From NCBI GenBank assembly GCA_026770025.1, contig JAMXDE010000045.1, positions 62,001 through 126,000 on the forward strand: a stretch of 64,000 nt of DNA, read 5' to 3'. The number at the start of each line of letters is the position of its first letter. Within the stretch, counting starts at the first letter, position 1. The translations under genes and the position numbers were made by a program. This document shows positions 1 through 49,767 of the stretch, in pieces. Below the pieces are notes generated by a model. That model was given only the letters and a program-made list of their open reading frames with translations. It did not search any database and was not told where the DNA came from. This DNA is from Craspedostauros australis. Taxonomy: Eukaryota; Bacillariophyta; Bacillariophyceae; Mastogloiales; Achnanthaceae.

Positions 1-3000
1 CTCATGATTGGATTCGCTCCGATCTTCCTCGTCATTCTGGATTAGTTGAGTCACTACTCCGTCGTCCTCATTATCCTCATCATCGCTGTCTGATAGGATG
101 TAGTACCTGTTGCTGTCAGCGAAAGATACTCTCTTCGCTTCCGATGTTTGACGCGTTGCCGTCCTTGGCATTGCTCCCTTCCGTCCGATGGTTGTGAAGC
201 CGTCTGCGTCCGTTGTTCCTGTTTCATTGGATATGTTCGGTGCTGGTGCCCAGCCACGGAACTGTCCGTATGATTGGTTGAGCCACTTGATGTCCCGTGA
301 ACAGATGAGTGACTTGGTCGATGGTCTGTACATGTTGTAGACCCCTGATGCGTGTTGGTGTGCATATCCGATGAACACCATCTCTTCTCCTCTGTTCTTG
401 AGCTTGGCGGTAATCCCGCCGTAGGTAGTCTTCACAACACCCACCTCTCCAAACGTGCGGAGTGCATCCGCATATGGTGGATCGTTGCCGAAGAATTGTC
501 GATGTGGTGACTCCTTCTGGTTCTTCGCTACAGTGATATTGGCGATGGCGGTGGCAGTACTAGCAGCTGCTGCCCACAGGCCATGCCTATACTCTTCGTC
601 GAGCTGTGCTCCGTTAAGCATGGAGCGGATCTTGGTGTAGAGGTACGCGAACTTGCGTTCCACTCTGCCGTTCTGTTGCGGCGTGTTCGATGCCGTGTAT
701 TCGAATTTCACGTTGAGTCCTGCATCGATGAGAATATCCTCCGTGGATTTGTTCTCTCCGCTGTTGTCACCTCGGAAGATGATCTGTTGGTCACCAGTCT
801 GTGACTTGATCGTCTGGACGAATCGTTTGATGTATCCTGGTTGATCACTCTTGTTCTTGAGAAAGAAACTCCAGCAGTGATCCGTGCAGTCGTCCACGAT
901 CAGGGTCCAGTAGCGTTTATCTCCGAAGCTTATGTGTTTAGTGTAACTAATGTCAATGAAGAGCCGTTCGCCGCGGCGAGTCGCTCTTGGAATGGTTGCC
1001 TTCGGAATATTCTTCACTCTTGCGTTCGCGACCGCGCAGTCGCGACATACCGGCATCTCGCCGATAATCTTCCATCCATACTGAGCGGCCGTCCGCTTCA
1101 TGGTCTCGAGCGGCGCGTGGCCGAGCATTCGGTGCAGGTTCACCGCGCTGATCTCCTTGGATGGATTCTTGACGATGGCTGTGCAAGCCTTGTCGTCGTC
1201 TGTTGGCATGATGGGATGCATCTGCACTCCCGTGATGAATCCGTTGGATGTGGGGAAGACTCGATCGAACACGATCTTCGTTCCGGATCCGTTGATGATG
1301 TCCATCAGGATGCCGTTGTTACCAAGCTGATAACCGTTGTACAGAGCCTTGTTCGTGGAGAAAAGGTTCACCGCCATCTTAGGTGTGTACTTCACATCAT
1401 CGAGCCGGATGATATGGCCAGTGTTGTCTCGCTGCTTGACCTTCAAGCGAATGGATCCCATCTTGGGAGAGTCCAGCTTCGTGCTGTCTCCCACTTGGAC
1501 GAAGGACTTGATATGCCGCACGTTGAAGAGAGCGGCGTCCGAGTTGACGATGTGACACGAAGCTCCGCTATCGGCGAGCCAGGTGTCCTTGTTGACCTTG
1601 TCCTTGTACTTGGTGCTCAGCTCGTGGAGTTGCTCCACAGCTGCCGCAGCTATCTCGTCGTCGAAGCTGCCGTCGTCGTCGTCTTCGTGAACTCCATCTT
1701 CGTTGTATGGAGGATGATGATCTCCGTCATCCATGTCATCGGGTAGTTGCGCGTAGTCCGATGGAATCGTACTGTTCCGATGAGATCCTGTGGCTGGATC
1801 GTATGGGTGGACGCGTGATCGCTCGCGTAAGAGCACGCGCATGCATCCTCCAAGGATGTAATGCAGATCCGTCTCTGGGATCGTTTCCGAGTCGTTCGCT
1901 TCCAGTATGCGATTGATGATGATTGCATTGACGAGGATCTCTTCGATTGATTCGAAGTGCTCGGATAGGATGGATCCCATCATGTTCACCCATATTGGCA
2001 TGAGTGCTCCTCGTGTTGTTCCTGGGAACATTCGCATCCCCGCTTCCATTACGGCGTCAAAGATGAGCTGCTTTTGGATTATCAATGCTGTTGTTGTTGC
2101 ATTCGGGATGGTGATGTGACGGAGGAGGTAATCGACACTGTTGGGATCCTCAATAGGTGGGAAGTCGATGTTCCCTGGGTAGACGACACGCTCGTTTGGG
2201 TTGAAGCTGTCGTTTGGATGATTGCCGTCCTCGGATTCGTCGCTGTCATCCTCGTCGAAGATGCCCGATCTGTTGTTCCCCGCCGCTGGAGGAGGCGGTG
2301 CTGCGCCGCCGTTCGTCTCGTCTTCATCTGCGCCGTCCTCGTCGGCGTCGTCGTCGTCATCGCTCATGGCCTCTTCGATGTCGCTATCGTTGGCCTCGTC
2401 GTCCATCTCAGCTTCGTCGCCGTATGAACCGATCAGGTCGTGCGCGTTGAAGCAGCATTCGTAGCTCACTTCGCGTCTTGGATCCACATCGTGGATGATT
2501 GGCTCCTCATTGAGCCACTCCGGGACGATCTCATCGTCCTGCACTTCGTCGTCACTTCCGACGCATGCGAAGTTATCGAAGAAGGAGTCTTCGATGTAGT
2601 CGTCGGACACCAACATGCAGAGCGGCATGTCTTTCGCAGAGAGTACCATCTCGTGTCCGCTCTTGTCGTGTCCTTGTGTTGCTGTGTTGGCCTGTTCGTC
2701 GGCCTTCTTCTTCTCGTTGAACTTCTTCTTTCGGCACTCCGCCTCGCGGTGTCCGAAGATGCCGCAGTAGTTGCACTTGCCCTTGAAGCCGCTTCCCTTG
2801 TTGCGCTTTCCGTTCATCTTGTTATTGTTTTTCTTGTTGTTCGATTTCTTGCGTTCTGGGCAATCGGCGGATCTATGGCCATACACGCCACAGTTGTGAC
2901 AAGTGCCCTTGAAGTTACCGGTGCTTGTGAAGCCGGTGTCGTTGCTCTTCGTGTTACTGTCTTGGAAGTCGTCGACGTATGCTTTGCCTCCTTTGTGCGT

Positions 3001-4062
3001 GGCGTATGCAGTACGGAGTACTCCTCTGATTGTGTTGATGGTGACCAGTTCCGGATTGAACGTGAGTTGATGTTGGAAGTTCACGATGTGAGTTCTGTAC
3101 TCGTTACTCACCGTGCTGAGGATTTGCATGATCATTTCCTCGTCCGAGATCTCATACTTGACATCGTGGAGACGCGATCGTAGACTCTCGAGTTGCGTGA
3201 TGTAGATGTCGGGGTCCGTGTCTCTCTTCATCTTTTCGTTGTTGAATTGGCGCTTGAGTTTGATCTTCGTCACTGCGTCGGATGGTCGGAACTTCTCCGC
3301 GAGAACGTTCCACGCTCCGTGTGCGTCTCCTTCGGGGTAGTCGACGGAGATGCATTGGTTGATGTACTGGATGGCCTGCTTGCCCTTTCCTTTCTCTGCA
3401 TCCATCATGAGGATCAGATCGCTGAAGCAGTCGCATCCCAGCTCGTACATCTCCTCCATCGCTTCCTTGTTTTCATCGGCGGCTGCCGCGATCTCGCTCA
3501 CTGTTGGTACCTTGGTCTTGCCCAACATCACGTCTCTCGTCTTCTGTGCACGAGCGTATGCCTTCGCTTGGGACTCCCATGCGCTGTAGTCTTCCTGTTC
3601 ACCGCTGAACATCGGCGCCTTGATGCGTCGCTTGTTCACGTTGGCTGATGTCGCCATGTTGGTTCGTTGTTTCGTCGTTGGTGCGCTCGCGTCCTTGATT
3701 TCCGTCGGTTTCTGTGTTACCGATTCTTCGATTTTCGCCTGTTGTTGCGCGGAGATTGTTTTCGTCACAAATTCTCCTCCTGGTGGTGTCTCACTTTTCC
3801 CACCCTGTTTGGCTGTGCGAATGCTCTTCGTCACACCAGTCTCCTCTTGCTTGATCGTCTCGGGAATCCTCTTCTCCTTACGATGTAGTCTTGCAGACCG
3901 TTCTTCTTCGGTCTCGTCGATCGCGCTTGCGTATGCGCCTGATAGGACAGTAGCCGCGGCTGCTTCCTTCTCTTGTCGTGGTGGAGTCTCACTCGCACCT
4001 TCTTCTCTCTTGATAGTCGGATTGGACAGAGGGATCTCTTTCAATTCCTCTTCCTCGCTCAT
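1..4062 (-). CDS. copia-type gag-pol polyprotein, single frame, 3' part off-window
   Basis: This is the polyprotein of a Ty1/copia retrotransposon. It starts at the ATG at 4062 and stays open for 1354 codons to the left edge, so only reverse transcriptase and RNase H are missing, presumably lying beyond base 1. Order seen: gag with two CCHC zinc knuckles (about residues 384-400 and 427-443; CHNCGVYGHRSADC and CNYCGIFGHREAEC); aspartic protease DSGAS near 828; HHCC pre-integrase finger; integrase D, D, E residues near 1036, 1097 (RGDNSGE) and 1133 (RVER); then an acidic linker. Gag and pol are fused in one frame, whereas the copy to its right has lost one base at the gag/pol border. The intact frame and adjoining complete LTR suggest a young, possibly competent element. 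The host is an alga; nothing indicates an animal or crop virus. Confidence 0.93.
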   Translation of the reverse strand, partial: MSEEEELKEIPLSNPTIKREEGASETPPRQEKEAAAATVLSGAYASAIDETEEERSARLHRKEKRIPETIKQEETGVTKSIRTAKQGGKSETPPGGEFVTKTISAQQQAKIEESVTQKPTEIKDASAPTTKQRTNMATSANVNKRRIKAPMFSGEQEDYSAWESQAKAYARAQKTRDVMLGKTKVPTVSEIAAAADENKEAMEEMYELGCDCFSDLILMMDAEKGKGKQAIQYINQCISVDYPEGDAHGAWNVLAEKFRPSDAVTKIKLKRQFNNEKMKRDTDPDIYITQLESLRSRLHDVKYEISDEEMIMQILSTVSNEYRTHIVNFQHQLTFNPELVTINTIRGVLRTAYATHKGGKAYVDDFQDSNTKSNDTGFTSTGNFKGTCHNCGVYGHRSADCPERKKSNNKKNNNKMNGKRNKGSGFKGKCNYCGIFGHREAECRKKKFNEKKKADEQANTATQGHDKSGHEMVLSAKDMPLCMLVSDDYIEDSFFDNFACVGSDDEVQDDEIVPEWLNEEPIIHDVDPRREVSYECCFNAHDLIGSYGDEAEMDDEANDSDIEEAMSDDDDDADEDGADEDETNGGAAPPPPAAGNNRSGIFDEDDSDESEDGNHPNDSFNPNERVVYPGNIDFPPIEDPNSVDYLLRHITIPNATTTALIIQKQLIFDAVMEAGMRMFPGTTRGALMPIWVNMMGSILSEHFESIEEILVNAIIINRILEANDSETIPETDLHYILGGCMRVLLRERSRVHPYDPATGSHRNSTIPSDYAQLPDDMDDGDHHPPYNEDGVHEDDDDGSFDDEIAAAAVEQLHELSTKYKDKVNKDTWLADSGASCHIVNSDAALFNVRHIKSFVQVGDSTKLDSPKMGSIRLKVKQRDNTGHIIRLDDVKYTPKMAVNLFSTNKALYNGYQLGNNGILMDIINGSGTKIVFDRVFPTSNGFITGVQMHPIMPTDDDKACTAIVKNPSKEISAVNLHRMLGHAPLETMKRTAAQYGWKIIGEMPVCRDCAVANARVKNIPKATIPRATRRGERLFIDISYTKHISFGDKRYWTLIVDDCTDHCWSFFLKNKSDQPGYIKRFVQTIKSQTGDQQIIFRGDNSGENKSTEDILIDAGLNVKFEYTASNTPQQNGRVERKFAYLYTKIRSMLNGAQLDEEYRHGLWAAAASTATAIANITVAKNQKESPHRQFFGNDPPYADALRTFGEVGVVKTTYGGITAKLKNRGEEMVFIGYAHQHASGVYNMYRPSTKSLICSRDIKWLNQSYGQFRGWAPAPNISNETGTTDADGFTTIGRKGAMPRTATRQTSEAKRVSFADSNRYYILSDSDDEDNEDDGVVTQLIQNDEEDRSESNHE

Positions 4063-4941: not shown

Positions 4942-7280
4942 TAGCTTCTCCCTTCCTGCCTTGTGCTTCATGACGTCGAATTCTCTCCTTTCTAGCTACG
5001 TCACGCTTGCTTGGTTTGCTTGGTGGAGGCCTGGATGGTGTGTCATGTGTTGACCTTGCTGGTGTGTTCGGAGGAGTGACCCCTGTGTCATCGTCGGCTT
5101 CGTCGCCGGATGGTGTGATCTCGTCATCCTCATGATTGGATTCGCTCCGATCTTCCTCGTCGTTATGGATTGGATGAGTCACTACTCCATCGTTCTCATC
5201 ATCCTCATCGTTGCTGTCTGATAGGATGTAATACCTGTTGTTGTCAGCGAAAGATACTCTCTTCGCTTCTGATGCTTGACGCATTGCCGTCTTTGGCATT
5301 GCTCCCTTCTGTCCAATGGTTGTGAAGCCGTCTGCGTCTGTCGTTCCTACTTTGCTGGATATGTTCGGTGCTGGTGCCCAGCCACGGAACTGTCCGTATG
5401 ATTGGTTGAGCCACTTGATGTCGCGAGAGCAGATCAGTGATTTGGTCGATGGTCTGTACATGTTGTAGACCCCTGATGCGTGTTGGTGTGCATATCCGAT
5501 GAACACCATCTCTTCTCCCCTATTCTTGAGTTTGGCGGTGATCCCGCCGTAGGTAGCCTTCACAACACCCACCTCTCCGAATGTGCGGAGTGCATCCGCA
5601 TATGGTGGATTGTTGCCAAAGAATTGTCGATGAGGTGACTCCTTCTGATTCTTCGCTACGGTGATGTTGGCGATGGCGGTGGCAGTGCTCGCAGCTGCTG
5701 CCCACAGGCCATGCCTATACTCTTCGTCGAGTTGTGCTCCGTTGAGCATGGAGCGGATCTTGGTGTAGAGGTACGCGAACTTGCGTTCCACTCTGCTGTT
5801 CTGTTGCGGCGTGTTCGATGCCATGAATTCGAATTTCACGTTCAGTCCTGCATCGATGAGAATATCCTCCGTGGATTTGTTCTCTCCGCTGTTGTCACCT
5901 CGGAAGATGATCTGTTGATCACCAGTCTGTGACTTGATCGTCTGGACGAATCGTTTGATGTACCCTGGTTGATCACTTTTGTTCTTGAGAAAGAAACTCC
6001 AGCAGTGATCCGTGCAGTCGTCCACGATCAGGGTCCAGTAGCGTTTATCTCCGAAGCTTATGTGTTTAGTGTAACTAATGTCACTGAAGAGACGTTCGCT
6101 GCGGCGAGTTGCTCTCGGGATTGTCGCCTTCAAGATGTTCTTCACTCTTGCGTTCGCGACCGCGCAGTCGCGACAAACCGGCATCTCGCCGATGATCTTC
6201 CATCCGTACTGAGCGGCCGTCCGCTTCATGGTCTCGAGTGGCGCGTGGCCGAGCATTCGATGTAAGTTCGCCGCGCTGATCTCATTGGATGGATTCTTGA
6301 TGATGGCTGTGCAAGCCTTGTCGTTGTCTGTTGGCATGATGGGATGCATCTGCACTCCCGTGATGAATCCGTTGGATGTGGGGAAGACTCGATCGAACAC
6401 GATCTTCATTCTGGATCCGTTGATGATGTCCATCAGAATGCCATTGTTACCAAGCTGGTAACCGTTGTACAGAGCCTTGTTCGTTGAGAAAAGGTTCACC
6501 GCCATTTTTGGTGTGTACTTCACATCATCAAGCCGGATGATATGGCCAGTGTTGTCTTGTTGCTTGACCTTCAAGCGAATGGATCCCATTTTGGGAGAGT
6601 CAAGCTTCGTGCTGTCTCCCACTTGGACAAAGGACTCGATGTGCCGCACGTTGAAGAGAGCGGCGTCCGAGCTGACGATGTGACACGAAGCTCCGCTGTC
6701 GGCGAGCCAGGTGTCCTTGTTGACCTTGTCCTTGTATCTGGTGCTCAGCTCATGGAGCTGCTCCACGGCTGCTGCAGCTATCTCGTCGTCAAAGCTGCCG
6801 TCGTCTTCGTCTTCGTGAACTCCATCTTCATTGTATGGATTATGGTGATCCTCATCATCCATGTCGTCGGGTAGTTGCGCATAGTTCGATGGAACCGTAC
6901 TGTTTCGATGTGATCCTGTGGCTGAATCATAAGGGTTGACGCGTGGTTGTTCGCGTAAGAGCACGCGCATGCATCCTCCAAGGATGTAATGCAGGTCCGT
7001 CTCTGGGATTGTCTCTGTGTTATCCGCTTCCAACAGTCGGTTGATGATGACCGAGTTGGCGAGAATCTCTTCGATTGATCTGAAGCTCTTGGATAGGATG
7101 GATCCCATCATGTTCACCCATATCGGTCTGAGCACTCCTTGTGCGATTCCTGGGAACAGTTTCACTCCTGCTTCCATTACAGCATCGAAGATGAGTTGCT
7201 TCTGGATTATCAATGCTGTTTCCGTTGCGTATGGAATGGTATCATGACGATGGAGGTAGTTGGAGTCGTTGGGATTCCAA
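4942..7280 (-). pseudogene. copia pol fragment (protease-integrase), interrupted
   Basis: This is the pol half of an older copy of the same copia family. Protease (TWLADSGASCH), the zinc-binding pre-integrase region (HRMLGH...CRDC) and the integrase core with RGDNSGE and RVER are all readable, followed by the acidic linker. The frame then runs into the LTR of the left element at 4941 and stops artificially at 4850, so the reverse transcriptase half is separated and would lie left of the window. Compared with the left copy, one base is missing near 7272-7283, which puts pol out of frame with gag. The element is therefore broken both by frameshift and by insertion. Confidence 0.9.
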
Positions 7281-9063
7281 TCGGTGGGAAATCGATGTTC
7301 CCTGGGTAGACGACACGCTCGTTTGGGTTGAAGCTGTCGTCTGGGTGATCTTCTGTTTCATCGCTGTCGTCTTGGTCGAAGATGCCCGATCTGTTATTCC
7401 CTGCCGCTGGAGCGGGCGGCGCCGCGCTGCCATTCGTTTCGTCTTGGCCTCTATCATTGTCGTTGATCTCGTCGTCGGCCTCTTCACTCATGGCCTCTTC
7501 GATGTCGCTGTCGATGACCTCGTTGCCCATCTCGGCTCCGTCGCCGTATGGACCGATCAGGTCGTTTGCGTTGAAGCAGCATTCGTAGCTCACTTCGCGT
7601 CTTGGATCCACCTCGTGGATGATTGGCTCCTCGCTGAGCCACTCTGGGACGATCTCATTGTCCTGCACTTCGTCGTCACTTCCGATGTACTCGAAGTTAT
7701 CGAAGAAGGAGTCTTCGATGTAGTCGTTGGATACCAACATGCACAGCGGCATGTCCTTTGCTGAGAGTACCATCTCGTGCCCGCTCTTGTCGTGTCCTTG
7801 GTTTGCTGTGTTGGCCTGTTCGTCGGCCTTCTTCTTCTCGTTGAACTTCTTCTTTCGGCACTCCGCCTCGCGATGTCCGAAGATGCCGCAGTAGTTGCAC
7901 TTGCCGTTGAAGCCGCTTCCCTTGTTGCGATTGTTGTTGCGCTTTCCGTTCATTTTGTTGTTGTTGTTGTTGTTTTTCTTGTTGTTTTTCTTGTTTGATT
8001 TCTTGCGTTCTGGGCAATCGGCAGATCTGTGACCATACACACCACAGTTGTGGCAGGTCCCCTTGAAGTTACCGGTGCTTGCGAAGCCGGTGTCGTTGCT
8101 CTTCATGTTGCTGTCTTGGAAGTCGTCGATGTACGCCTTGCCTCCTTGACGAGTGGCATGTGCTGTACGGAGTACTCCTTTGATCGCATTGATGGTGACT
8201 ACATCTGGATTGAACGTGAGTTGGTGATGGAAGTTCACGATGTGTGTCTTGTATTTGCTACTCACCGTGCTGAGGATCTGCATGATCATCTCTTCTTCAG
8301 TAATCGTGTAACCGACATCGTGGAGACGCGAGCGTAACATCTCGAGTCGCATGATGTAGACGTCGGGGTCCGTGTCTCTCTTCATTCTTTTGTTGTTGAA
8401 TTGGCGCTTGAGTTTGATCTTCGTCACTGCGTCGGATGGCCGGAACTTCTCCGCAAGAACGTTCCACGCCGCGTGTGGATTCCCCTCAGGGTAATTGTCG
8501 GAGATGCACTGATTGATGTATTGGATGGCTTGCTTGCCTTTTCCTTTCTCTGCATCCATCATGAGGATCAGATCGCTGAAGCAGTCGCATCCCAGTTCGT
8601 AGATTTCCTCCATCGCTTCCTTGGCATCGTCGGCGGCTGCCGCGATCTCACTCACTGTTGGGACCTTGGTCTTCCCCAACATCATGTCTCTCGTCTTCTG
8701 TGCACGAGCGTACGCCTTCGCTTGGGACTCCCATGCGTTGTAGTCTTTTTGGTCACCGCTGAACATTGGCGCCTTGATGCGTCGCTTGTTCATGTTGGCT
8801 GATGTCGCCATATTGGTTCGTTGTTTCGTCGTTGGTGCGCTCGCGTCCTTGATTTCCGTCTGTTTCTGTGTTGTCGATTCTTCGATTTTCGCTTGTTGTT
8901 TCGCGAGGATTGATTTGCTCACAAATTCTCCTCCTGGTGGTGTCTCACTTTTCCCACTCTGTTTGGCTGTGCGAATGCTCTCCGTCACACCAGTCTCCTC
9001 TTGCTTGACCGCCTTGAGAATGCTCTTCTCCTTGCGATGCAGTCTCGCAGACTGTTCCTTGTC
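7210..9063 (-). pseudogene. copia gag fragment, N-terminus replaced by an LTR
   Basis: This is the gag of the older copia copy, with both CCHC knuckles (CHNCGVYGHRSADC and CNYCGIFGHREAEC) and an Asn/Lys-rich spacer longer than in the left copy. Similarity to the left copy begins at the SARLHRKEK segment. Upstream of 9063 the sequence is the start of an LTR in opposite orientation, so roughly the first 50 gag residues, the leader and this copy's own 5' LTR are missing. The frame continues artificially into the LTR up to 9114. Its end near 7210 results from the one-base loss at the gag/pol border. Confidence 0.9.
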
Positions 9064-10831: not shown

Positions 10832-11205
10832 CGTGTTACCTAAGGCGTCACCTTTGCAGGACCCGTGCCAGTAGTATACTCTCACGATATTCCTTCATGG
10901 TGGAAGGATGAACGAAAGGATGCCGATCCGTAGATATGTTGGATACTCTGCGAGGGCCTGCTTATTCTCAATGAACCCGGCACGCCATCGCTTCAAAGAT
11001 CAGCGACGTCTCGAAGATCTTCGCTGAGAAGATTCTGTTGTATGCTCGGATGCGCCTGGACCAACAAGGCCTTGGATTTGAGATGTGGCTGGCGCTCTGT
11101 CGCTTTCCGCCATTCGAAACGAGTGTCCTTGGAGCGGCTTCCACGCCTCCGGAACAGGGAAGAAAACTCGAACCACATCCAGTGAACAGTAAGCACGTTT
11201 CGATT
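10832..11205. other. no recognisable gene
   Basis: This 374-bp stretch lies between the solo LTR and the next element. A plus-strand frame of some 50 codons runs from about 11005 to the LTR, but it matches no family I recognise and has no clear start. Nothing else is supported. Confidence 0.4.
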
Positions 11206-12143
11206 TGTTGGAAATCCGGGGTACCCCAGTCTCTAGTAGTAGTCTCTGGTTACCTATTCATGTTATTGCATTGTTGGAACTGTGAGTACAACATCTTCAT
11301 CACTTTCAATTCCATTTGCCAAAGCATACATAATCCACAGTAGCACACAGTCTTGCCCTTGCTCATGCAGTGCTGTCCTCCTGCTTCATCATGTCATGCA
11401 GCATGTACTCCATGTACATCTCATCTTGCAGTATTGGTTCATCTCATCATGCATCTCATCATGCATCTCATCATGCATCTCAGATATTCCATCTCCTGCC
11501 CTCTACCGATAGTTTCGTTAGCATAGACATCGCCGAGTCGTAGGCGTCACACAGCTCGGTCCATTCGATCAGATCACAATTTCCCATTCGTCACAGGAGC
11601 ACCCTGGATGGGAGCTCATTCAGCTCCTCATCATCACACATCTCCGATCATCTCCGATGCTTCTCCGATCGTTTCTCCCATTACTTCGCCGATCACTTCA
11701 CCGGCTTCCTGGAAGTTCGTCATCACTGGTTCGTTCACAGGCCATCTCACACTTCGTGACATTGGCCTTCCTCCAGTACTCTTTTCTCATTGGTTGCGAC
11801 ATGGGGGCCGTAGTCGCTCGTATCGTGATGTTGGTCACGATTCCAACATCCCCGCCCCCTGCGACATACACGTGTGATTGGCATTCCTGCATTGAGGTCA
11901 CGGACACCATAGTCCGGTTCGCATTCGGCACGTGGCGTTCTCCACCACAAGTTACGTGCAGCTCACATTTTTCTGTGTCACAATGATCAAACGTGGGAGT
12001 TGCGGTAATGTATCATTTCATGACATTCGACTCCTGACTCTTGGGTTATTGGGAGGTGCGGTAGTGTAGCATTCCTCGATGCTCAACTCCGCACTCTTGG
12101 GAGGTGCGGCAATTCGGTGTTTCACAACACCCGATTCCTGACA
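11206..12143 (-). repeat. 3' LTR (938 bp)
   Basis: On the plus strand this runs from TGTTGGAAATCC to CCGATTCCTGACA. It contains three copies of CTCATCATGCAT and a repeated GGGAGGTGCGG motif near its U3 end. It is the partner of 17113-18050. Confidence 0.92.
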
Positions 12144-15289: not shown

Positions 15290-17100
15290 TCATGTAGTGC
15301 AACCCGCATGGGTGCACTCATCTGCACAGTCGACTCTCGAATTCGTTGATCGCTTCGTAGCAGATCATCGAAAGCTCGATGTGCACATCGGTGGCAGACG
15401 CCATGCTGCTCAACGAGTATCGAGCCACGAGGCAGATCGGACCTGCATTCATGTGCAGTCCTCTGCGCTCCTCATCACTCGTTTTGCCTTCGTTGTAGTT
15501 GGCGTCGCCGTCTTCCTCTTCATTCTCGGATGAAAAGGGTTCTCGGTTGATCAACTCCATCGTGATCGTTCGTAGGACTGTAGTAGCCATGCACTCCTGG
15601 AGTGTACTCGGCTATCACCTTCCTGGTCCACTCGTAGTTGTTGACTGGTGTTCCGCTGTCGAAGCCAGAAACCCCATCATTGTTGATTGTTACGAGCGCC
15701 ATGTTGTTCGTGATCGCGTTGTCATCGCGCATCATCGTGTAGTTTCACATGGTCACATTTTTGGTCGTTGTTCGCGATTTCGGTGATGGCCACGAATTTC
15801 GTGTTGGTCACATTTTTGATGCCGACCACATTTTCGTTGATGGGCATGGACATCGGCTCGTCGTTTGTGATGAGAGCGATGTCATCCATCCCGTCCATCC
15901 CGTCTGTCGCGACCTTGGCCGACCCAGCTTCCTTCATCTCACTCTCTCACTGCCATTGCCTCGTGCGCTCTTATAACCGTGTTTGATACGGTGGCGGTCG
16001 TAGATGAGGTTCATGGCTCTGCGGATGTCTGGAATCATCGTCTTTTCCGATGGCGAGGACACCTCCTGTTCCTCGTCTTTCGTATTGAGCCTGGGATCGA
16101 AGCGCGGAAGGACCTCCCGTCCAGCTTGTTCCAGCGCTTTCCCTTCTCGTCGAAGCACACACTTCCTGTGTTGCTATTTTCGTTGTTGTTGCCAATTCGT
16201 GGCTTGGTAGGTTGCATCCTTACCATCTCGATCATCTCACAGTAGGAATCGCAGCCAGCCCTCGAGCATGTATCTCACGACAGCAGTTGGTGCCACATGA
16301 TCATCTCGATGCTTTCCATTGCTGCTCCTCGCGTCACTCTTGATGTCGTCTCGATTATGGGCCATGCCCATTCCTGCGTAGGTCTAGATCGTCCTTCATC
16401 TTATCATCCCTGCCTGCATGCTCGTGCTCGATTGCGTCGCGCGCGCCATGCGCACAGACGTTCAGCTTCAGCGATCTGGTGTTGCTCCTCGTCCATCTCG
16501 GCTTCCATATCGACCGAGTGCTGATGAGGCAGCTCCATTCTTGCAGGGTAGGTTGGAAGCTCTCATTGCTTCCTCAATTGCATCTCGTTGAGCTCCTTCA
16601 GCTATCTCGCCCTCATGGCGCAGTCTGCTGAATCCGATGCATCCGAGAGCGTGGCCTGCTGTGTCCGAATCTCTTCTCTTGCGCAGCTCGCTCTCGTACT
16701 CCAACACAGCCGTGAAGGCTTCCATGCCTTCCTTGACTTCATGGTCCCATGACCATGGACAGTTCTTCCAATGCGCGTGTTCCGAGCGCCTCCTTGCTTC
16801 CAGCAATACATGTAGTGTCTGTACTTGCCTCAGCTGCGGTCTCCACTCTGCTGGTGGACTCGCGGTGGTGCTCGATTCGATCATCATCATCGTCTTGACA
16901 TCGTCGTTCGTGTGGGGGTTACCATGCCGATCTTGGCATCCATTGGCAAGGAGCATCATGCTCCAGAGCGGCTTGCTCTCCTCTCTCTTCACACAGGCGA
17001 CCATTACTCGCGATGGTCTTGGGTGTAGATGGTGGTCATGTTGATGATGGTGATGTTGGCTAGTGTTGGTGGTGGTGGAAACGTTGGATTTCAATCATAA
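15290..17100 (-). pseudogene. presumed gag-side region of the copia element, degenerate
   Basis: Between the linker and the 5' LTR the minus strand shows short frames (up to 208 codons at 16468-17094) that shift repeatedly. I could not recognise CCHC knuckles, the protease DSG or the integrase triad, so assignment rests on position alone. The interior appears to have lost protease and integrase. Confidence 0.4.
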
Positions 17101-17112
17101 CGTTTCGAAACG
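17101..17112 (-). promoter_or_regulatory. palindromic leader motif next to the 5' LTR
   Basis: CGTTTCGAAACG is a perfect palindrome immediately downstream of the 5' LTR. It matches CGTTTATAAACG at 4133-4144 in the other copia family at the same position, differing only in the two central bases. A conserved role in priming or packaging is an inference. Confidence 0.6.
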
Positions 17113-18050
17113 TGTTGGAAATCCGGGGTACCCCAGTCTCTAGTAGTAGTCTCTGGTTACCTATTCATGTTATTGCATTGTTGGAACTGTGAGTACAACA
17201 TCTTCATCACTTTCAATTCCATTTGCCAAAGCATACATAATCCACAGTAGCACACAGTCTTGCCCTTGCTCATGCAGTGCTGTCCTCCTGCTTCATCATG
17301 TCATGCAGCATGTACTCCATGTACATCTCATCTTGCAGTATTGGTTCATCTCATCATGCATCTCATCATGCATCTCATCATGCATCTCAGATATTCCATC
17401 TCCTGCCCTCTACCGATAGTTTCGTTAGCATAGACATCGCCGAGTCGTAGGCGTCACACAGCTCGGTCCATTCGATCAGATCACAATTTCCCATTCGTCA
17501 CAGGAGCACCCTGGATGGGAGCTCATTCAGCTCCTCATCATCACACATCTCCGATCATCTCCGATGCTTCTCCGATCGTTTCTCCCATTACTTCGCCGAT
17601 CACTTCACCGGCTTCCTGGAAGTTCGTCATCACTGGTTCGTTCACAGGCCATCTCACACTTCGTGACATTGGCCTTCCTCCAGTACTCTTTTCTCATTGG
17701 TTGCGACATGGGGGCCGTAGTCGCTCGTATCGTGATGTTGGTCACGATTCCAACATCCCCGCCCCCTGCGACATACACGTGTGATTGGCATTCCTGCATT
17801 GAGGTCACGGACACCATAGTCCGGTTCGCATTCGGCACGTGGCGTTCTCCACCACAAGTTACGTGCAGCTCACATTTTTCTGTGTCACAATGATCAAACG
17901 TGGGAGTTGCGGTAATGTATCATTTCATGACATTCGACTCCTGACTCTTGGGTTATTGGGAGGTGCGGTAGTGTAGCATTCCTCGATGCTCAACTCCGCA
18001 CTCTTGGGAGGTGCGGCAATTTGGTGTTTCACAACACCCGATTCCTGACA
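17113..18050 (-). repeat. 5' LTR (938 bp)
   Basis: Nearly identical to 11206-12143; the reading frames of 76, 89, 109, 77 and 67 codons inside both copies translate identically. Transcription of the element would start here and run leftward. Confidence 0.92.
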
Positions 18051-45749: not shown

Positions 45750-46528
45750 TGTGGCTGAGATCCGCCGTTGCTTTGTGATGGATGTTCTTGGAATTGAATT
45801 GAATTGACTGGGGTTGTGAATGTTGTGGATGTGTCAGGTTCGACCTCTGCTCGCCTTTGCAATGCTTTTGGCAGGGACAGAAACGTGCCAGTCCTCGTAC
45901 TGCCCGATGTGTCTCGGAACGCCCTCGATTCTTGAATGGAGGCTTGGGATGACAATGGTGATGGCACCGATGCTGTGCTTTGACCGTTCTTTCTTTGGCT
46001 GTGGCAGTGCCTTTTGCTGCCTTTGCGGTTGGCTTTCGGGTGCTCACGCCGATGAAGTTGGGATGATGTGGGTCGTGATGCTGATGTTGATGCTGATGCC
46101 GATTGTGTCAGTCTGCGGAGAACAGCAGCTTGTCGGAGTTGTTTGCTCGATGGACTCTATCTTGATTTGTGTGCACGCGTCTCCGCTCTCATTCATGAAG
46201 ACAGCAGCGATCCGTTGACACAGTGTCCAGAAGCCAAGGTGAGCGAGCCGAAAGGAAATATCAACGAAGAGATCAAAGGGGGAAACAAGTTTTACAAATA
46301 CAACCTCTGACAAAGCTTGTTCCTGCTGCGCCAATCGATCAGTCCACCGATTGGCTGGTCCGATGATTGCCCATTGCTGCACGTTTGCTTCAATTCCTCG
46401 TTCGCCTGTCCGGATTGGTCGGTGTTTGGGAACAAAGCCGGAAGGGATGACGCCGCTCATGCCAATGTTCTGGTTCGGGTTGGCTTCGATGCCAGCAACG
46501 GAAGATAGCACCATCCCAGCACTCTTCA
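45750..46528. other. intergenic, no convincing gene
   Basis: This is the upstream region of the 430-residue protein gene. A 156-codon minus-strand frame (46044-46514) is present but lacks recognisable features and overlaps alternative frames of similar quality. Confidence 0.35.
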
Positions 46529-46699
46529 GGGGCTTCCGGTAAAACGGACTATCGGACTAACGAACAGCATCACTATTTGGTTAACGGACGATATTAGTCG
46601 TGAATGCGAAATTCTTAGTCATGATTGGAATGTCGTACTTGGCGTTTATGGTTTATGCAATCCGTGATTGAATTGTCTCTAGCCTACAGCGAAAAAAAA

Positions 46700-46841
46700 A
46701 TGCCCTAAAATAAGGCACCTTTTGAAAAGATGCCCTATTTAGGGCACGTTTTGAAAAGGTGCCCTATTTAAGGCACGTTTTGAAAAGGTGCCCTATTTAA
46801 GGCACGTTTTGAAAAGGTGCCCTATTTTAGGGCACGTTTTG
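46700..46841. repeat. five-unit array of a palindromic 29-bp repeat (left arm)
   Basis: Units start at 29-base spacing and consist of GTGCCCTATTTAAGGCAC, itself nearly palindromic, plus GTTTTGAAAAG. Variants in the centre are mostly compensatory (TTTAGGGCAC, TTTAAGGCAC). There are no spacers, so it is not a CRISPR array. Confidence 0.9.
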
Positions 46842-47058
46842 TTTCACAATAGCCCAGCCACGATGGGCACATTCCACAAAGCCATCAACGGGGAACGATG
46901 TGGACGTCACTGAATGACGAATCAGAACACTAATACTTATCGTCAACTTGGCGTGACATGCCTTTGATAATCCTCTGTCGTCGCGTTGTTGCGCGGGATT
47001 TGCTCTTGCTCTTTCTGTCGTCCAATCGGCTGCGAACAGCGACATGTGGGTGAGGGAG

Positions 47059-47206
47059 AAAAGGTGCCCTATTTAGGGCACGTTTTGAAAAGATGCCCTA
47101 TTCAGGGCACGTTTTGAAAAGGTGCCCTATATAAGGCACGTTTTGAAAAGATGCCCTAATTTAAGGCACGTTTTGAAAAGGTGCCCTATTTTAGGGCATC
47201 TTTTGA
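47059..47206. repeat. five-unit array of a palindromic 29-bp repeat (right arm)
   Basis: This is the inverted partner of the left array. Its last unit (CCCTATTTTAGGGCATC) mirrors the first unit of the left array (ATGCCCTAAAATAAGG). The unit number is the same, five. Confidence 0.9.
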
Positions 47207-47356
47207 CATCGCACAGATACGAGTCGCGAGTGGCGACGACAATGTCTGAAGGACATGGCAATCAAGACTAATAAAATCTCATTCACGACTAACAGTGTTC
47301 GTAAGTCCGTTAAAATGCACCCGAACCACCATGTCCGGCAGTTTACCGGAAGCCCC

Positions 47357-49767
47357 AGAATCTGCGCCCCATCCGAAATACGAGTGGAGAGTACTCTGCG
47401 AACAAAAGAACTGGGAGATCTTCGTATCAAAGATTCGGATGGTGCGAACACGGAGACCTGCGTGTCCTCGTTCGACCAAGGCGGTGGCATCGGATCTCGT
47501 GACCCGGAGAGTTCGGCGACAAGGAGATGAGATCATGTGACGAACTTGCTTCTGCTTTTTCCGTTTTTCGGTTCCGATTGCGTCATTTTGTGTTGGTGAC
47601 AGGCATGACGTCATATACAGGTACATCAGAAGTCCCTCGCTGAGACCTACAAATCTATCGTACGAAGCAAGAATGTTTGGGGATGCCGCAAGTGGCAACA
47701 GATCTGAAGGAGGCAGCGACGTCTCCATGCGTCTGCGGACTTCCACCGCACGCTTTTTACGATTATGACCACGATTTAGTCCCTCTTCTTGGAGCGAAGC
47801 GCAAAGACAACCTCTGATGGTTGCCCTGTGATTGTTGTGATCGAAGCATGCAAATGCATCAAACAAGACACAAGGAGACTTGGAGATGTTTCAGGATTGC
47901 CGTGGCGAGCCGAAACACACTTGCGGAGCGGAGGATTGTTGCCTTGTCGGCCATGTCTGATCACGGTACCAATGTAGATGAACGATGCGCCAAGAGCATT
48001 CTTGTTCGTCGTTTTCTGGCAATGTGCACAAGGTGTGTTGTGGAGAAGTCGGCGAAGCGCATCTCCATCGTCGTCAACATCATCGTCCAGATGCTCTTCC
48101 AAGGCGACTAAATGTAGCATGGTGTAGTTCGTAGCGATTCACAGGTGTGGACCTTGATGTGGGACAGAGTATCAATAGACTAAGTGCAAGTCCTTGCTCC
48201 GCTGCTTCACCATTCTGCCATTCTGTCCTCCTGTCGTGCGCTTTCTCCAACGGCACTGGTGCGAGTGATGCGAAGGACGAGAAAGTGGAGAAACCGGAAA
48301 GATGGCGAGGAGAGCAACGGCAGCCACAACCACTGCTGCCCCTGCGCAATCGGAGGTTGTTTGGCCACCGAGACAATACGGGTACGAACCACAACAGCGA
48401 GAGAGAGAGATGCATGCGCGTTGTGCTACCCGTCACACTCAGACCTCCTATTCTCCTGGCTGCGTTCTCCGCCGAAGGCAAGTTGTAAAAAGTGAGTGGA
48501 TCAGAACAGAACGGGACAGAGGATGCTCCATCACGATCACAGCCGTCGGTAAATCTCTCCGACAACAATCACACTTTGTGATTGAAGATGTCATGTCGCG
48601 CCAGAGCTGAGGGTGCAGAAAGGATCTAGACAGAGGACAGCGAATAACTCTGGATAGCAGACATGCGCTGCATCACGCCATACACAGATGCAGTTCTGCG
48701 GAGACTACGACTACCATTCAGAGCTGCAAACGTGAGCAATCCGGAGATGCTCTGGAGCATCGCCTGGTCAATGGAATTTCTTCTTGTAGACGGAGCCGTT
48801 GCCTGTTTGCGTTCCTAACTTGCCCACGAGGTATGACACGAGTTATGCTACCCACGAGCTTGGCTAGTGGATTACGACCTATGACATGTATTCTACGTAA
48901 TACGAGAATGCCGCCGTGTCGTTCACAGCGAAGACGGCGAGGAGGGAAACAAGATACTAATAGTGAGGGAGGCGTGCTGCATGAAAGCCAGTGGGTAGGA
49001 GTAAAGCACTGTAATGTGTACAGATGCACAACAAACAACAGGCAAAGGGAGAGTGGGGAGAGAGAGAAGATGGCGGTGGCTGTTGTGCGGCACCACGGAG
49101 GCAACACTGGGGCTCAAAATACCTGGTGACACACGTTGCACACGACCTGAAGGACTCTCTTGAGGAACTCCCTGTGTTCGCCGAGGGATAAAACCCACAA
49201 CACCAACTGTGAGTTGAGTGTGTGATTCGCGTTTATTGGTTGCTGTCCCTGTGACGGGTCCAACATCTAATAAATTATTGGAAGCGACATGATCGTTCGC
49301 TGACGTTATGTGACATTTTTTGTCATACGACATGGATTCAGGTAACTGTGTTGTTGATTCTGCACGGAGGCAGGTGTGCACGGCGTTATTATTCGCTCTC
49401 ACACCGCCGCTAGATACCTTGTTTGAGTTTTGGGGAGAACAACGCGACGCGACCTCTCTGCAACTTGCTTGGTTCGTTGTCGGGACCAGCCGCCGTGCCG
49501 AAACGAAGAGTGCCACAGCGACCAACACACACAAAACACACAAAACACACACGATTGCACACTCCATGTGTCATCCGAACGAAACAAACCAGCAAGGAAG
49601 CAAGGAAGCAAGGAAACAAACAGAGAGCCACTCATCGTGGTCATAAAAAGAAGAAATCACAAAACAACCACAACCACCATCCGCAGCAACGGCAGCAGCA
49701 GTAGCAGTAATTGCGACAGGAACGATCCACATCGTACCATACATCATCAAACCATCCCTCGACAACC
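47357..49767. other. gene-poor region, no recognisable gene
   Basis: A TGACGTCA palindrome lies at 47606-47613, and the 3' part (49528-49760) is probably the 5' leader of the next gene. A 195-codon minus-strand frame at 47279-47866 crosses the foldback element's end and is not convincing. Nothing else is supported. Confidence 0.4.

Follow-up and report, generated by a model that had tools for sequence, protein, structure and literature searches.

The element at positions 46529-47356 of the window, the whole 64,000-nucleotide stretch of DNA that was analyzed, raises the question of what kind of mobile element carries two arrays of a palindromic 29-bp repeat. A first-pass annotation, made from the letters of the window, described it as a Foldback-type element. 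The 828-bp element is highly likely to be a non-autonomous cut-and-paste transposon of the PIF/Harbinger type (PHIS) that makes CWG duplications and resembles NuwaI, because its ends and arrays recur in 5.6-kb copies that encode a DDE_Tnp_4 transposase.

The element begins with the terminal inverted repeat GGGGCTTCCGGTAAA (46529-46543, plus strand), and its right end carries the same 15 bp, perfectly inverted (47342-47356, minus strand). The target-site duplication is CAG, with a left copy at 46527-46529 and a right copy at 47356-47358. The first G of the left repeat is common to the duplication and the repeat, giving the pattern CW/G...C/WG with equal W (slashes mark the borders of the element). 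The left array (46701-46841, plus strand) is composed of five units with a period of 29 bp, each combining a near-palindromic core (for example GTGCCCTATTTARGGCAC) with the spacer GTTTTGAAAAG. The right array (47064-47200, plus strand) also has five units, in the orientation of the left array. The first-pass annotation was thus right about the coordinates of the element and its palindromic 29-bp unit, and its 217-bp loop measures about 222 bp between the arrays (46842-47063). The equal copy number it described holds for this element, with five units per array, but is not a family trait, since the five largest of ten other elements have left/right core counts of 6/7, 6/6, 4/6, 5/3, and 5/2; the regular expression behind these counts overlooks a variant core of the window copy, which it scores as 5/4. 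No open reading frame of at least 150 aa lies inside the 828 bp, and one 195-aa frame overlaps the right end by 78 bp. Being short and non-coding, with ends common to the 5593-bp coding element L009, the element is MITE-like.

The arrays had been read as mirror images inside a larger inverted repeat. Aligned to each other, they agree at 110 of 129 positions in direct orientation versus 90 of 127 when one is inverted, and those of the 5.6-kb element behave alike (135/147 direct versus 130/175 inverted). The asymmetric spacer runs one way in 49 cases and the other way in 1, alike in both arms, across 11 representative elements that are partly dependent, L018 being nearly the window copy. The arrays are therefore not mirror images. 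The larger inverted repeat stands as far as its 15-bp ends, and the arms behind them have only a weak inverted likeness (86 of the 154 positions aligned, including the initial 15).

These results bear directly on the Foldback reading. A classical Foldback element has, as we take its definition, long inverted arms of mirror-oriented tandem subrepeats, and these arms would form stem-loops that drive mobility. As single-stranded DNA, the left array has a predicted fold of -48.9 kcal/mol versus a mean of -17.4 for shuffled sequences (z -11.9; 0 of 200 shuffles as good), and a related family has inverted arms of 1.2-1.9 kb that hold tandem repeats, both of which speak for such an element. The window element itself lacks arms of this kind, because its arrays run the same way and only its short ends are well inverted. 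The duplication is CWG, moreover, and the same ends are found on copies that code for a transposase, which leaves a classical Foldback identity for the 828-bp element very remote; the foldback-like arms belong to the related family.

Mobility was followed in the genome that contains the window (74.8 Mb, 90 contigs). A DNA search with the element returned 125 matching pieces. Eight copies, the window copy among them, are full length at 99.9-100% identity, two of them with one extra base, and four further full-length copies are 89% identical. The flanks of the eight near-identical copies are all different (25 bp viewed per side) and read CW/GGGG...CCCC/WG with equal W on both sides; the 5.6-kb copies also have equal W. 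The genome-wide search proposed in the first-pass annotation was fruitful for both the unit and the terminal repeat. A 28-base pattern of the unit, searched with a tolerance of 3 mismatches, had 158 matches (about 100 places listed) versus 0 for the reversed control. The end together with its CW flank had 63 matches (49 exact and 14 with one mismatch, in one of which the C is missing), also versus 0; as the pattern includes CW, the number of ends lacking it cannot be read from this count.

The 49 exact ends form 20 pairs, with nine ends left single, and W is the same in 18 of the 20 (binomial p 2e-4). The two pairs with unequal W lie on C64 and C66, whose copies L021 and L022 depart from the pattern, and L024-L026, older copies of 365 bp, have AT in place of CW on one side. 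The duplication in younger copies is therefore the trinucleotide CWG. C64 and C66 hold several diverged copies of this family (family 1), apparently within a repeat region that has been duplicated. Four short older copies of about 365 bp were also observed, L024, L025, L026, and L027 (on C7, C1, C14, and C1, respectively), three of which have similar flanks, as if an old insertion had been duplicated along with its surroundings.

An empty and a filled site could be compared on C1, as had been suggested. Here, a 5589-bp copy is inserted within the transposase gene of another copy, with the flanks ...GAGCT/element/TGGCC.... The intact copies L009 and L010 read GAGCTGGCC at this site, with the single CTG that the insertion on C1 turned into two. 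The element is real and mobile, as claimed from the start, given its many copies (eight of them near-identical), its target-site duplications, and this nested insertion. Activity of the family is apparently recent.

The 5.6-kb coding copies L009, L010 (5590 bp), and L012 (5589 bp) are more than 99.9% alike, and their ends are those of the window element, with arrays of the 29-bp unit type. A 328-aa frame, intact in all three, is a DDE_Tnp_4 transposase (Pfam PF13359, E 1.6e-14, 54.3 bits versus a cut-off of 24.8). Residues D167, D246, and E279, presumably the catalytic triad, are invariant in four aligned transposase sequences, which come from three genes (two are the same gene on C21). A PDB profile search with the transposase gave no match at E up to 1. 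The PHIS superfamily is characterized by a DDE_Tnp_4-type transposase, found here in copies whose ends are those of the window element, and by a group-specific target site with terminal inverted repeats, here CWG and the 15-bp ends. A transposase search of the genome gave 125 matching pieces (122 of 459 candidates scored), most of them outside family 1, and the genome appears rich in PIF/Harbinger-type elements.

Compared with L009, the window element has arms of 82% and 85% identity. In its middle stretch, two pieces of 90 and 31 nt align beside the arrays of L009 at 73% and 81%, and the rest is without a match to the 5.6-kb element. Judged by these alignments, the window element is a shortened relative within the family, and a simple deletion of L009 does not account for it. 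Its real origin may lie in an element not seen here, because arm identity to the 5.6-kb copies is just 82-85%. The transposase of the 5.6-kb copies, or of a close unseen relative, would cut at the GGG...CCC ends, and the cut element would then insert at CWG. Duplication and insertion are seen directly; the common ends and arrays point to this transposase as the enzyme that probably cuts.

The second gene is conserved and in L009 encodes 358 aa on the minus strand (1141-2217). It has 45 matches in the genome, 41 of which are outside family 1. Of these 41, 28 lie within 5 kb of a transposase match and 13 lie farther away, as counted with 45 of the 125 transposase matches. The second protein was aligned from 17 of 19 segments, with L070 and L071 left out and several members trimmed. 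In this protein, a domain of about 55 residues occurs twice in tandem (hhalign probabilities of 95% and 97% with E-values of 1e-8 and 2e-10, from a single comparison without a database and with domain boundaries chosen by the authors). A Pfam search with the 17 members gave no Myb/SANT match and weak matches to CUT (two members, best E 0.11) and HTH_71 (one member, E 0.1). Twelve PDB matches were listed for the second protein, the best being a hexosaminidase (E 0.0034); they are weak, look unrelated, and were not credited.

Two additional frames were matched, in a search of this genome, solely inside seven elements belonging to family 1 or 2 (8 of 8 and 7 of 7 matches inside elements), with 28% and 39% between the families. 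We infer that these frames are exons of one third gene. In Pfam, neither had a match over the cut-off, and the best weak match was RHH_3 (E 0.014).

The 29-bp units have about an even chance of being multiple binding sites for a protein of the element, most likely the product of the second gene. This product, which has the duplicated domain, would bind the units, and the units would bring the transposase to the ends. The proposal draws on analogy with two systems. In zebrafish Harbinger3_DR, the second protein is described as binding a short subterminal motif (PMC9710019), the model applied here, although that motif has 9 bp and the putative sites here are 29-bp palindromic units. The tandem repeats of Galileo are described as holding additional sites for its transposase (THAP) (PMC3688188). 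An array that repeats a palindromic site in one direction gives no end-symmetric design, which counts against the explanation proposed here.

Variation among the units was tabulated from 52 spacer-anchored units; 4 were dropped, and the other 48 count as in register, with no more than 6 mismatches over 18 positions. This table was used in place of one built by regular expression, which is biased in that its left half-site is mostly fixed. Core positions 4, 5, 8, 12, and 15-18 are invariant in all 48 units, a count to be read with the recent common descent of the units in mind, as they are not independent. The in-register changes are 24 A-C at pair 1-18, 9 C-A at pair 5-14, and 18 C-A plus 2 C-T at pair 6-13. 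All are one-sided and break the pairing, and no true compensated pair is present among the 48 units; two T-A and one T-G at pair 6-13 belong to units shifted by one base. Because the changes break the palindrome without compensation, the variation favors protein sites over a hairpin under selection. Selection for a hairpin or cruciform, or for a hairpin small RNA, would fit the strong predicted fold and a core that remains nearly palindromic across the observed units, yet the lack of compensation makes it improbable. It is also rather unlikely that the arrays are neutral passengers without function, left behind by slippage or by abortive gap repair. Unit number does differ between copies, core invariance may stem from recent duplication instead of selection, and an origin of the slippage or gap-repair type has been proposed for the 60-bp subterminal repeats of Medicago MtPH-A6-4 (PMC2213677). 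Against neutrality, larger copies carry arrays near both ends, the eight core positions do not vary in 48 units, and one to three cores persist in the smaller, diverged copies.

Two related families also target CWG. Family 2 (C6, C21, and C27) has a transposase 55-57% identical to that of family 1 and ends that start with GGGGAACACGGTAATTTG. Its 28 ends (26 exact) give 11 pairs, with equal W in 10; the exception is a pair on C49, and four exact ends are left single. Members L049, L050, and L051 (C6, C27, and C21) contain the transposase, the second gene, and the third gene. Their long inverted arms are built of tandem repeats, with 14-bp or 11-bp units among others, and are foldback-like (1.92 kb at 98% on C27 and 1.36 kb at 91% on C21). 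In family 3, the transposase is 37% identical, and CWG with equal W on both sides is found at two of three loci; at the third, L078, the left end was not found. Ends were also looked for in a 39% group (L039-L043), and none were made out.

Three more members of family 2, L073, L074, and L075 (C9, C24, and C4), are about 5 kb long and have inverted arms of 1.25-1.27 kb (97-99.9%) that hold arrays of the 11-bp GGGGGACACAG. Among the matches listed, no transposase match falls at their places. L073 and L074, for which frames were listed, have one each, of 169 and 171 aa, and the 169-aa frame had no Pfam match. These three members are nearer to a foldback element than the 828-bp element is.

NuwaI is characterized by a 5'-CWG-3' duplication, found here with the exceptions on C64 and C66 and in L024-L026, and by terminal inverted repeats that span 12-61 bp and usually begin with GGG, here GGG(G)CTTCCGGTAAA of 14-15 bp. 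The two also have a PHIS-type DDE transposase and a second gene in common (PMC4482050). NuwaI is reported in 16 animal genomes only, and the abstract speaks of mainly animals (PMC4482050, Han et al. 2015), whereas the host here is very probably a diatom. The second ORF of NuwaI is characterized by a Myb/SANT domain. The family described here differs further from NuwaI as reported in having no detectable domain of that kind and in possessing a third gene and subterminal arrays.

Medicago already provides PIF/Harbinger elements with subterminal tandem repeats, and those of MtPH-A6-4 are likewise variable in number (PMC2213677). There, the units are 60 bp and are described as oppositely oriented if present at both ends, and the group makes TTA/TAA duplications, in contrast to CWG here (PMC2213677). 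Galileo, a foldback-like member of the P superfamily, also has tandem repeats near its ends, but it belongs to another superfamily, has long inverted arms, and has a described binding role where that of the present arrays is proposed (PMC3688188). Tetris is foldback-like and, like the window element, non-autonomous with tandem subrepeats near both ends; its repeats lie within inverted arms and its duplications are 8-10 bp, versus direct arrays and 3 bp here (PMC4079207). PIF-Harbinger elements are already known in the diatom Cyclotella cryptica (PMC7466962). The paper listings of one open-access library showed no CWG element of a diatom.

The host was placed by its silicon-transporter genes. 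The family PF03842 has 88 matches in this genome, including 32 that score over 760 bits (a stop interrupts 4 of the 32), versus one sub-cut-off match in 14 control genomes. A set of 88 is seemingly large for a diatom. The difference from the controls makes a diatom host very probable, and the algal host assumed in the first-pass annotation is supported as far as tested.

A tentative wider reading is that diatoms carry a separate three-gene clade of CWG-targeting PHIS transposons. Its genes would be the transposase, the duplicated-domain protein, and a third protein known from the clade alone. Each family would have its own array close to the ends, palindromic 29-bp units in one and repeats of 11 bp and 14 bp within inverted arms of 1-2 kb in another, co-evolving with the DNA-binding protein of the element, and foldback-like arms would be the extreme form. 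The finding itself would take CWG-type PHIS transposons beyond animals. The genome offers a PIF/Harbinger-type lineage with intact coding copies and apparently recent activity. Related families with identifiable transposase genes carry short subterminal arrays or foldback-like arms in this one genome, and the function of such repeats thereby becomes testable.

Other repeats are present elsewhere in the window. Positions 1-3903 and 5129-9057 are two stretches that are 89.7% alike, and open reading frames over 5129-9057 encode copia-type gag and pol domains. Positions 11195-12143 and 17100-18050 form a direct repeat of about 950 bp (99.5%) and are possibly the two LTRs of one element.
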